In this document: one piece after another, positions 24,973-27,968 of the stretch
How positions within the stretch are numbered: the stretch's first letter is position 1
Layout of the letters: each line of letters starts with the position of its first letter
Assembly (NCBI RefSeq): GCF_001427785.1
Contig: NZ_LMHM01000013.1
Coordinates: 504,745 to 542,393, forward strand
DNA length: 37,649 bases
From: Lysobacter sp. Root690
GTDB lineage: Bacteria > Pseudomonadota > Gammaproteobacteria > Xanthomonadales > Xanthomonadaceae
Reading direction: 5' to 3'
Position numbers and translations under genes: made by a program
The notes under the pieces: model-generated
Seen by the model: only the letters and a program-made list of their open reading frames with translations
Database searches by the model: none
Told to the model about the DNA's origin: nothing

Positions 24973-26166
24973 ATGTCCGTATCGAAATCGCGTCTGCGCC
25001 TGCATGCCCGCCTGATCGCATCCGTCGCGCTGTTGTCCGCGGGCGGCGCCATCGCCGCCGACGATGTCAGTCCGATCCTCAAGACCGCCATGCAGCGCGA
25101 TCTGGGCGTGTCGTCGAGCCAATTGCAGCAGTACCTGCAGACCGAACGGCTGAGCCAGTCGCTGGAAGCGCGCGCCAGGCAGCAACTCGCCTCGAACTTC
25201 GCCGGCAGCTGGATCGAACGCAACGACGACGGTTCGTTCAAGGTCGTGGTCGCGACCTCGGGCACGGCCAAGCGCGCCGATCTGACCGGCGCCGAGGTCC
25301 GTTATGTGCGTCACAGCCTCAAGCAGCTGCAGCTGATCCAGTCCGCGCTCGATCATCAGGCGAACACGCGCGTGCCCGGCGTCAGCAAGCTGCTGAGCGG
25401 CGTGAATTCGTGGTACGTCGATCCGATCAGCAACGCGGTGGTGGTCTCGGTCGCTCCGGGCGCCGACGAGCAGGCGGTCGACATGATCGCGTCGAGCGGC
25501 GCCGACACCAGCGCGGTGCGCGTGGTGACCGACGTCGGTACGCCGCAGACCACCGCGGTCGTCCGCGGCGGCATCGAATACCGCATTCCGACCTCGCAGG
25601 GCACCTTCGTGTGCTCGGTCGGCTTCCCGGTGAGGCGCGGCACGGTCAACGGTTTCGTCACCGCCGGTCACTGCGGCACCGCCGGCCAGAACGTCAACAT
25701 CGGCAGCGCCGCGCTCGGCCGCTTCACCGCGTCGAACTTCCCCGGCACCGATCGCGCCTGGGTCACGGTCAACTCCACCCACACCCTGGCCGGCAACGTC
25801 AGCAACTACGCCGGCGGCACGGTCGCGGTGAAGGGCAGCACCGAAGCGGCGGTCGGCGCGGCGCTGTGCCGTTCGGGCCGTACCACCGGCTACAAGTGCG
25901 GCACCATCCGCTCCAAGAACGTGACGGTCAATTACCCGCAGGGCGCGGTCCGCGGCCTCACCGAGACCAATGTCTGCACCGGCGGCGGCGATTCGGGCGG
26001 TTCGTGGATCACCACGCCCGGCCAAGCCCAGGGCGTGACCTCGGGCGGTGCGTTGCCGGCCGGTTCCAACGACAACTGCTCGGTGCCGTCGTCGCAGCGC
26101 CGGACCTGGTTCGAACGTCTGAATCCGATCCTGAGCCAGTACGGCCTGACCCTAGTTACGAGCTGA
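24973..26166 (+). CDS. Alpha-lytic-type protease preproenzyme, protease 2 of 3
   Basis: 397-aa S1E preproenzyme: signal peptide 1-28 (AIA before ADDV), pro region with [20 protein letters not shown], and a mature domain starting near [13 protein letters not shown] (about 194). The triad is His233, Asp260 and Ser341; cysteine pairs are 214/234, 299/309 and 335/369. Both S1-pocket methionines of alpha-lytic protease are threonine here (Thr336 after the cysteine before GDSGG, and Thr356 in QGVTSGG). An insertion is present at TSQGT. Substrate choice should therefore differ from protease 1. It may be of the AlpB/L5 type described in Lysobacter sp. XL1, which I cannot confirm. TGGAG lies 8 nt before the ATG. 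Confidence 0.94.
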
Positions 26167-26190
26167 TCTTCAATCTCGGGTCTTGACCTC

Positions 26191-26223
26191 GAAACGCCCC
26201 GCGATCGCGGGGCGTTTCTTTTT
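26191..26223 (+). terminator. Intrinsic terminator of protease 2
   Basis: GAAACGCCCCGC (26191-26202), loop GATC, GCGGGGCGTTTC (26207-26218): a perfect 12-bp stem and a 28-bp DNA palindrome, then T5. The 47-nt segment 26175-26221 recurs after protease 3 with 2 differences. Confidence 0.92.
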
Positions 26224-26768
26224 GGCGGCAATCGATGAGCGGTGCGGTCGATTGGTATCGAACGGCGGGTTTTGCGCCTGCTTAGGCACCGCCGCACGCG
26301 CAATCGAATTGCGTCGATGCATGGACAGGTCGCGCAGACGATCGCGTCCGCGCAACGCTCGCGGAGGCGAGGACGGCAGCGCGGTTCGAAGATGCGCTAC
26401 GACGCGCTGGATGAGACCGAAACGTACGCATCGGATGAACGCTCTCGGTTTCGAGGCACGTCGGGTACGCCCATTCGATATCGCCAAGTTCAAAATCATC
26501 TGCTGCATTGAATGCACAGGAAGTGTGCGATTTTCCTCTGGATCGCCGTTCCTGTGATGCGTGTTGGGTATGCGACGACGGTAATTCGCGCTTTCGTCTT
26601 GCGCGTCGCGGGGCATCGTTTTATCTGGTGATGTCGTTTGATTCCGCTGCGCGATTCATTCGCGACCGCGCACCGGGCCGCGACCATCGTCGAGGACGGC
26701 GATGTCATTGCGATGGTCCGCGTCTTGCGCGGCCGTTGCTTTCGCGTACCAAATCAAGGAGTTTTTCC
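26224..26768. other. Gene-free upstream region of protease 3
   Basis: 545 bp in which I see no credible gene; the open frames have no family similarity and sit on repeats of the leader. It holds the small palindrome TGCATT-G-AATGCA (26504-26516) in an A/T-rich stretch. TTGCGC (26599-26604) and TTATCT (26621-26626) form a weak promoter-like pair. From TTATCTGG (148 nt before the ATG) onward it is homologous to the protease 2 leader. The ribosome-binding site is AAGGAG (26756-26761). Confidence 0.45.
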
Positions 26769-27968
26769 ATGTACGTAACGAAATCTAATCTGCGCCTGCG
26801 CGCCTGCCTGATCGCATCCTTCGCCGTGTTGTCCGCCGGCAGCGCCACGGCCGGCAACGCTCCCGACCCAGTCCTTCAGGCCGCCATTCAACGCGATCTG
26901 GGCCTGTCGTCGAGTCAACTGCAGCAGTATCTGCGGGTCGAACGGCTGAGTGAGTCGCTGGAAGCACAAGCCAGGCGCGAGCTCGCTTCGGGTTTCGCCG
27001 GCAGTTGGATCGAGCGCGGCGACGATGGCTCGTTCAAGGCGGTGGTGGCTACCTCGGGCAGCGGCAGGAATGCGAATTTGCCGGGCGCCGAAGTGCGTCA
27101 CGTGCGCCACAGTCTCAAGCAACTGCAATCGATCCACGCATCGCTCGACGCGCAGGCCGGCGCCCGCGTGCCGGGCATCAGCAAGATGCTGGCCGGGGTG
27201 AATTCGTGGTACGTCGATCCGACCACCAACAGCGTGGTGATCGCCGTGGCACCGGGCGCCGAGGCGGCGGCGATCGACATGGTCGCGCTCAGCGGCGCCG
27301 ATACGAGTGCGGTTCGCTTCGTGACCGACACCGGCACGCCGCAGACCACCGCTACCGTGCGCGGCGGCATCGAGTACCGCATTCCGATCGGCGCGGACAT
27401 TTACGTGTGTTCGGTCGGTTTCGCGGTCAAGAAGGGTACGGTCAAGGGGTTCGTCACCGCCGGTCACTGCGGCGAGGCCGGCCAGGCGGTGAACATCGGT
27501 AACGTCGCGCTGGGCCGGTTCACCGCGTCGAAGTTCCCCGGCAACGATCGCGCCTGGGTGACGGTGCGCGGCGAACACACGCTGGCCGGAAACGTCAGCA
27601 AATATGCGGTAGGCGGCACCGTCGCGGTGAAGGGGAGCGCCGAGGCCGCGATCGGCGGGACGTTATGCCGTTCGGGGCGTACCACGGGCTACAAGTGCGG
27701 CACCATCCGCTCCAAGAACGTGAGCGTCAATTACGGCGGCGCCGGGGTGGTCAGCGGTCTGACCGAAACCAACGTGTGCACCGGCAGGGGCGATTCGGGC
27801 GGGTCGTGGATCACCCATTACGGCAACGCCCAGGGCGTGACCTCGGGCGGTGCGTTGCCGGCCGGTTCCAACGACAACTGTTCGGTGCCGGCGGATCAGC
27901 GCAGGACTTGGTTCGAACGTTTGAATCCGATCCTGAGCCAGTACGGGCTGACCCTGGTCACGAGCTGA
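26769..27968 (+). CDS. Alpha-lytic-type protease preproenzyme, protease 3 of 3
   Basis: 399-aa S1E preproenzyme, closest to protease 2. Signal peptide 1-28 (SATA before GNAPD), pro region with [20 protein letters not shown], mature domain from about 194 ([13 protein letters not shown]). The triad is His233, Asp260 and Ser343; cysteine pairs 214/234, 300/310 and 337/371 are kept. The S1-pocket positions are Thr338 and Thr358, as in protease 2. It differs by a longer loop VSKYAVGG, the surface change YGGAGVVSG and more lysine. All active-site features are intact, so it should be a working enzyme and not a decaying copy. AAGGAG 7 nt before the ATG is a strong ribosome-binding site. Confidence 0.94.
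   Translation: MYVTKSNLRLRACLIASFAVLSAGSATAGNAPDPVLQAAIQRDLGLSSSQLQQYLRVERLSESLEAQARRELASGFAGSWIERGDDGSFKAVVATSGSGRNANLPGAEVRHVRHSLKQLQSIHASLDAQAGARVPGISKMLAGVNSWYVDPTTNSVVIAVAPGAEAAAIDMVALSGADTSAVRFVTDTGTPQTTATVRGGIEYRIPIGADIYVCSVGFAVKKGTVKGFVTAGHCGEAGQAVNIGNVALGRFTASKFPGNDRAWVTVRGEHTLAGNVSKYAVGGTVAVKGSAEAAIGGTLCRSGRTTGYKCGTIRSKNVSVNYGGAGVVSGLTETNVCTGRGDSGGSWITHYGNAQGVTSGGALPAGSNDNCSVPADQRRTWFERLNPILSQYGLTLVTS

Follow-up and report, generated by a model that had tools for sequence, protein, structure and literature searches.

The window analysed here, a stretch of 37,649 nucleotides from Lysobacter sp. Root690 (contig NZ_LMHM01000013.1), carries three protease genes, p1, p2 and p3, which are arranged head to tail on the plus strand and encode proteins of 398, 397 and 399 amino acids, respectively (Table 1). 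The first differs from the other two at two residues of the primary specificity (S1) pocket. In p1 the residue after the cysteine preceding GDSGG is Met338, and Met358 lies within QGVMSGG. The same sites are occupied by Thr336 and Thr356 in p2 and by Thr338 and Thr358 in p3. Re-reading of the three genes showed that the residue numbers and the span given in an original prediction, made from the letters of the window, were exact. The His/Asp/Ser triad (235/262/343 in p1, 233/260/341 in p2, 233/260/343 in p3) and six mature-domain cysteines were found in each protein, and the prediction was right by sequence in calling them intact in all three.

The prodomain PF02983 scored above the gathering score of 23.4 bits in all three proteins (49.8, 46.3 and 53.3 bits). 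With their chymotrypsin-like fold, triad and six cysteines the enzymes belong to MEROPS S1D, all three by sequence and p2 also by model. Identity of the mature domains, counted from GGIEY onward, is 66% for p1-p2, 63% for p1-p3 and 82% for p2-p3. Homology with the PDB entry 5mrt places the mature start at about 25555 in p2 and about 27351 in p3.

Table 1. Features of the protease array in the window
Feature	Position	Strand	Basis
p1, AlpA/L1 pre-pro-protease, S1 pocket Met190/Met213	23319..24515	+	sequence, 5mrr comparison, PF02983 + PF00089
p2, AlpB/L5-type protease, pocket Thr190/Thr213 (residues 336, 356)	24973..26166	+	sequence, tree, AlphaFold2 model, Foldseek
p3, second AlpB-type protease, pocket Thr190/Thr213 (residues 338, 358)	26769..27968	+	sequence, tree
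Terminator-like hairpin 3′ of p1	24544..24572	+	terminator scan; close L. capsici match stops at 24572
Terminator-like hairpin 3′ of p2	26191..26218	+	terminator scan
Hairpin 3′ of p3, inverted repeat, copy of the post-p2 hairpin	27993..28020	+	absent from the terminator scan list
Probable replaced alpB block, 70-82% identity to L. capsici where aligned; right end placed only to about 200 bases	24573..28150		

Identity of the enzymes and position of the two residues

A by-eye count against 5mrr gave two differences across 199 mature residues, which identifies p1 as alpha-lytic protease AlpA/L1. p1 combines Met190/Met213 with a place in the AlpA clade, a combination found in neither p2 nor p3. 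The fold, triad, cysteines and prodomain of L1/AlpA (5mrr) and of the L. enzymogenes alpha-lytic protease (1p01, 2alp) are common to all three enzymes. The best PDB sequence match of both p2 and p3 was 5mrt, the L5/AlpB protease of Lysobacter (capsici) XL1, which has the S1D fold in common with them and carries Thr190/Thr213. Because L5 itself is Thr/Thr, this pocket already exists in a solved enzyme; p2 and p3 are new members of the AlpB/L5 type, but the pocket itself is not new. L1 and L5 are described as homologous bacteriolytic S1D proteases with mature forms 63% identical and with consecutive protein accessions (PMC12250508, excerpt). In L. capsici VKM B-2533 alpB stands directly downstream of alpA, as p2 does of p1, and p2 and p3 lie downstream of alpA in a conserved locus; L. 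capsici has one copy of AlpB, whereas the window has two. Identity to L. capsici AlpB in the mature domain is 72% for p2 and 70% for p3, and p1 is 99% identical to L. capsici AlpA.

The original prediction had placed both sites in the S1 wall as residues 190 and 213, and had called for an alignment to alpha-lytic protease. Aligned with the wild-type enzyme, 1gbj (same sequence as 2lpr) has Ala after the Cys, i.e. at site 190, and 1p09 has Ala in QGVxSGG, i.e. at site 213. The threonines of p2 share columns with these alanines, the alignment being gap-free between the two sites. Since the same columns were changed in solved Ala mutants of alpha-lytic protease, the S1 assignment of the Thr/Thr sites holds. 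The PDB titles of 1gba and 1gbe name Met 190 to Ala plus a Gly 216 change, and those of 2lpr and 1p09 name broad specificity. In the related Glu-SGP residues 190 (alias 192) and 213 touch the P1 side chain, i.e. that of the residue preceding the cleaved bond (PMC5508998, excerpt). The mutant sequences, the PDB titles and this report thus bear out the predicted positions.

An AlphaFold2 model of mature p2, built from a 46-row alignment, had a mean predicted local distance difference test score (pLDDT) of 97.7. Foldseek matched it with template modelling scores (TMq) of 0.96 to 5mrr, 1gba and 2lpr, and of 0.92 and 0.91 to chains B and A of 5mrt. A further column, called Val217A (after SGGN), presumably holds a third residue of the S1 wall. 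All 15 AlpA rows have Val there, and Leu occupies it in p2, p3 and the two AlpB rows of L. capsici type, so that L1/AlpA with Met190/Met213 plus Val stands against p2 and p3 with Thr/Thr plus Leu. A further difference between AlpA and p2/p3 lies in the loop that follows the S1 wall. Both this loop and the fact that a Thr/Thr enzyme, L5/AlpB, had already been solved and profiled were missed by the original prediction.

The Glu-SGP pair, Ser190 with His213, is not that of p2 and p3, which are Thr/Thr. It was seen in four paralogues of the genus (L039, L044, L063 and L064, from genomes G005, G017, G010 and G013, respectively), which fall in two separate clades; convergent Glu specificity is possible for these.

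Conservation and direction of the pocket difference

Homologues were collected from three sources: 20 genus genomes including that of the window (19 with a match, G011 without); 149 family genomes, of which 32 gave a match (40 matches lay outside the genus, and the 24 supplied with a locus were read); and a species-genome collection, from which a scan contributed the best 80 of 572 loci. The resulting 170 distinct proteins were reduced to 166 by dropping one with a run of unresolved bases, two without GDSGG (one of them truncated at the edge of its locus) and one in which column 213 was a gap. The sample is rich in Actinobacteria, and the counts of 190/213 states reflect this sampling: A/T 71, A/L 29, S/L 16, M/M 15, T/T 9, V/T 5, S/H 4, V/S 3, I/S 3, G/T 2, S/Q 2, A/Y 2 and one each of S/S, G/L, A/S, L/A and C/T. 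Met at either site occurred only in the 15 Met/Met rows, all of them AlpA. T/T was also found in two genomes outside the genus group (G086, G038). The A/T streptogrisin-like proteases of Actinobacteria and Myxobacteria resemble p2 and p3 in combining Thr213 with a small residue 190, but differ from them in having Ala190, a distant sequence and other loops.

A tree was built from 145 representatives, with near-identical rows collapsed and columns 190 and 213 left out. The AlpA clade, sole holder of Met/Met in the sample, had a support of 100 in the Shimodaira-Hasegawa-like approximate likelihood ratio test (SH-aLRT). p2 and p3 were sisters (98) inside an AlpB clade that includes L5 (95). Bottom-up parsimony at the node joining AlpA and AlpB gave Thr alone at 213 and left Thr, Ala and Val undecided at 190. 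In this sample Met/Met is therefore derived and Thr213 older, and the predicted remodelling from Met to Thr runs the wrong way round. A search for swapping between pro and mature domains gave no clear swap, p2 and p3 staying paired in both trees, with supports of 100/98 for the pro part and 98/51 for the mature part. L028, the Ser/Ser protein of G014:C30, had a long branch in the mature tree only; compared with the AlpB-type genes of G014 and G009 it is 78-80% identical in the pro region and only 51-52% in the mature domain, which points to an unusually fast mature domain.

The difference between p1 and p2 is by itself not far from chance: 71 of 199 mature columns differ, which gives a probability of about 0.13 that both named sites do. 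Of 184 well-filled mature columns, 48% change as often as column 190 or more often, and 60% do so relative to column 213. Because p2 and p3 are sisters, their shared Thr/Thr counts as one observation. Hypervariability of the S1 sites was considered and rejected: in the 145-row tree column 190 had 21 changes and column 213 had 14 (mean 20.7 over 184 columns), and in the 46-row clade the values were 10 and 8 (mean 7.7 over 194 columns).

What lifts the pocket difference above chance is the conservation of the residue pair by clade. Met/Met was present in 8/8 AlpA representatives (15 rows before near-identical ones were collapsed) and Thr/Thr in 6/7 AlpB representatives, the seventh being Ser/Ser. 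Among the AlpB rows (these seven plus L006) 27 of 28 pairs are only 51-82% identical in the mature domain. Nine of 199 mature columns were diagnostic, i.e. fixed in the 15 AlpA rows, fixed in the seven Thr/Thr AlpB rows and different between the two; as the rows were chosen by state, with the Ser/Ser row L028 left out, these nine include 190 and 213. Three further diagnostic columns sit in the loop after the S1 wall, a cluster with a post hoc P of 0.0014. The seven Thr/Thr AlpB rows also have in common x[LIV]P immediately after SGG/STG.

Expected specificity and alternative readings

The explanation that we consider probable is that AlpA, with a small pocket, stands beside two AlpB-type enzymes with an open Thr/Thr pocket. 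In this array p1 is the enzyme with the small, methionine-lined S1 pocket, and AlpA cuts mainly after small residues (Thr, Ala, Ser and Val). p2 and p3 would be tandem copies of a secreted bacteriolytic AlpB/L5-type S1D protease, in which Thr190 together with Thr213 would keep the pocket open, much as alanine does in the mutants of alpha-lytic protease. Larger hydrophobic residues, namely Met, Phe, Leu and Val, should therefore be accepted at P1. Of the two pocket types the open one with Thr213 would be the older, and Met/Met would have arisen within the AlpA lineage. If p2 and p3 are secreted and made together with AlpA, as seems plausible, the cell may gain from dividing the P1 space between them.

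This expectation rests on the behaviour of related enzymes. The M190A (1gbj/2lpr; MaLP) and M213A (1p09) mutants have the side chain shortened at the same two columns as p2 and p3. MaLP, the M190A enzyme, is allowed to cleave after A, F, L, M, T and V, and the wild type after A, S, T and V (PMC5500892, excerpt). For L5 the normalised P1 frequencies on proteins were Met 13.4%, Phe 10.5%, Val 8% and Leu 8%, with Pro frequent at P2; the same source lists A, V, T and S for wild-type alpha-lytic protease and L, F and V for a mutant, with a residue preference comparable to that of L5 (PMC12429127, excerpt; the term 'Met190' does not occur in this paper). The P1 residues reported for MaLP and L5 are thus similar, and the natural Thr/Thr enzyme L5 behaves much like the opened mutant. 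p2 and p3 would be expected to share this preference; vesicle export, bacteriolysis and cleavage after Met, Phe, Val and Leu are established traits of L5 alone. The original prediction of complementary cleavage preferences is supported only by homology, namely through L5, which is Thr/Thr and prefers Met, Phe, Val and Leu. It needs narrowing in one respect: since p2 and p3 carry the same pocket, the array offers two pocket classes, not three.

Several points weigh against this explanation. Columns 190 and 213 do not change faster than the average column. The mutants are engineered, carry Ala and not Thr, and are changed at only one of the two sites, and 1gba and 1gbe also change Gly 216. Wild-type alpha-lytic protease, although it favours Thr, cleaves after Leu and some Ile as well (PMC5660086, excerpt), so that the AlpA-like and L5-like P1 classes overlap; the raw L5 cuts, which include V, A and T, make this overlap large (PMC12429127, excerpt). 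The mature-domain identity of p2 and p3 to L. capsici AlpB is only 72% and 70%, and because of this divergence and the differing loop after the S1 wall the preference is not readable from the two residues alone. Finally, the grouping of p2 and p3 with L5 weakened when the pro and mature regions were analysed separately: the pro region by itself did not yield the AlpB clade, and the tree of mature domains extended it to V/S and A/T rows.

We regard it as rather unlikely that Thr/Thr has little effect and that p2 and p3 are extra copies serving dosage, different regulation or delivery, for example in vesicles, with a preference overlapping that of AlpA. Separate control is possible, as a GGAG-containing stretch precedes the ATG of p1, p2 and p3 and terminator-like hairpins follow p1 and p2; a sigma-70 promoter scan, with 0 sites against 0.8 expected, was uninformative. 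L5 is a cargo of vesicles and its deletion alters vesicle formation (PMC8415630, excerpt), which fits a role in delivery. The response to the medium differs as well, being 39-fold for L1 and 6-fold for L5 (PMC10380237), and the overlap in cleaved residues described above points in the same direction. However, L5 after normalisation favours Met and Phe, unlike the residue list given for the wild-type enzyme (PMC12429127, excerpt), and the retention of Met/Met in all AlpA and of Thr/Thr in all but one of the AlpB representatives argues against this reading.

It appears very improbable that p2 and p3 lack a selected function and are duplicates under relaxation or decay. The ratio of nonsynonymous to synonymous substitution rates (dN/dS) between p2 and p3 was 0.43 in the pro and 0.35 in the mature region, compared with 0.03 and 0.04 between p1 and L. 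capsici AlpA, and decay does occur in relatives, where the third gene of G014 is cut short and a copy in G005 lacks GDSGG. Yet p2 and p3 are full length, with triad, cysteines and prodomain, and their dN/dS stays under 1 in the pro as well as the mature part. Compared at equal distance the values were alike, 0.21 and 0.14 for alpB between G003 (L. capsici) and G004, the next relative, and 0.20 and 0.11 for p1 and the alpA of G004, and looser selection on AlpB was rejected for this reason. A faster evolution of p3 was not accepted either: the mature relative-rate counts lean to p3 with six of six outgroups (e.g. 13 vs 5, chi-square 3.6), but 3.84 was exceeded with one of the six only and the lean was inconsistent in the pro region.

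The idea that alpha-lytic protease was Met/Met ancestrally and that its duplicates were remodelled to Thr/Thr, which is favoured only by p1 being first in the array and AlpA best studied, is almost certainly wrong in view of the restriction of Met to the 15 AlpA rows, A/T as the commonest state (71/166), the parsimony result of Thr alone at 213 and the lack of Met/Met among the sampled outgroup rows (which include the best 80 of 572 loci).

With AlpA beside two Thr/Thr enzymes as the preferred explanation, the original observation is correct, its functional guess mostly right, its direction reversed and its precedent known; the case is mostly ordinary, and the turnover of the locus is of interest. 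Alpha-lytic protease serves as a model enzyme in the study of protease specificity. The comparison points to its small Met/Met pocket as a late innovation within a single Lysobacter clade, and to the natural retention beside AlpA of enzymes whose pocket resembles that of mutants engineered for broad specificity. If this is confirmed, the proteomics reagent MaLP would have natural counterparts in p2 and p3, and the locus would offer a set of naturally varied S1 pockets built on the same scaffold.

The locus and its proposed turnover in the genus

The proteases are bounded by a gene at 17774-18922 on one side and by an ABC transporter gene (28986-30788) and a UPF0029 gene (30799-31419) on the other, each of which was present in 17/17 other genus genomes read (G002 was left out of this reading). 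A YkuD L,D-transpeptidase gene (19552-20061, PF03734) was at the locus in 14/17. Pfam searches gave no match for the genes at 17774 and 28130. The two T/T loci outside the genus, in G086 and G038, had none of these flanking genes. Between the flanks eight of the 17 genomes had M/M alone, four M/M+T/T, one M/M+S/S+T/T, two V/S+I/S+G/T+A/T, one I/S and one V/S. All 17 thus have a conserved slot with one to four such proteases of varied pockets, which is new. Earlier work listed alpA for five strains belonging to four species, and alpB for the L. capsici strain alone, where the two locus tags differ by three (PMC4657364, excerpt); by position and pocket, a second protease gene exists in more genomes than that of the L. 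capsici strain.

The window was compared with L. capsici (G003) in 200-base bins. Identity was 96-98% over p1 and 88% in the next bin. Positions 24573-24883 were unaligned; between 24884 and about 28.2 kb identity was 70-82% wherever the sequences aligned. It rose to 94-96% at 28200-28599, was 82% and then 63% in the two bins that follow, and reached 93-100% in the ABC and UPF0029 genes. At the protein level AlpA is 98.9% identical, and p2 and p3 are 67% and 65% identical to the AlpB of G003. Synonymous divergence (dS) came to 0.12-0.15 between the two alpA genes, and to 0.50-0.60 when p2 or p3 was compared with alpB. These dS values and the drop of identity at the block edges speak against simple speciation orthology of p2 and p3 with L. 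capsici L5. G004 also has an L5-type gene, 95% identical to that of G003, although in AlpA, ABC and UPF0029 the window resembles G003 more than it does G004. The shortest account suggested by these comparisons is that alpB was replaced in the lineage of the window; the alternative is an older extra copy lost in both G003 and G004. A donor was not found among the 20 genus genomes and 149 family genomes, where the best match outside the window's own genome was 67% identical. Foreign composition was rejected: GC content at third codon positions was 0.887 in p2 and 0.828 in p3, near the 0.872 of p1 and the 0.78-0.91 of three neighbours, so there is no compositional sign of a distant donor. The stretches after p2 (26167-26225) and after p3 (27969-28027) are 90% identical, which would fit a tandem duplication of gene plus hairpin.

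We tentatively propose, as a reading that is perhaps a little less than evenly balanced, that the locus is a standing slot in which whole pre-pro units of secreted lytic proteases are added, lost and swapped, which would give every species its own set of S1 pockets, and that in the window lineage alpB was replaced like for like by a distant alpB pair after the split from L. capsici, with Thr/Thr kept. Such an exchange would point to selection for a second cleavage class beside AlpA.

Two irregular copies were noted in relatives. L035 (G014:C30), the third protease of its array, diverges from related sequences beyond the S1 loop and terminates early, owing to a frameshift or an assembly error, and L070 (G005:C6:184200-190000) is a degenerate copy with ADSGG instead of GDSGG. 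The genome of the window has a fourth paralogue (G000:C13:811355-812413; L004, L065) of the CAEGGDSGG class, in which an unresolved residue directly after the active-site serine motif makes residue 213 unreadable. Upstream of the proteases in the window lie two adjoining DUF4279 genes (21887-22303 and 22462-22941), the second of which has a counterpart at the locus in 4/17 other genus genomes.

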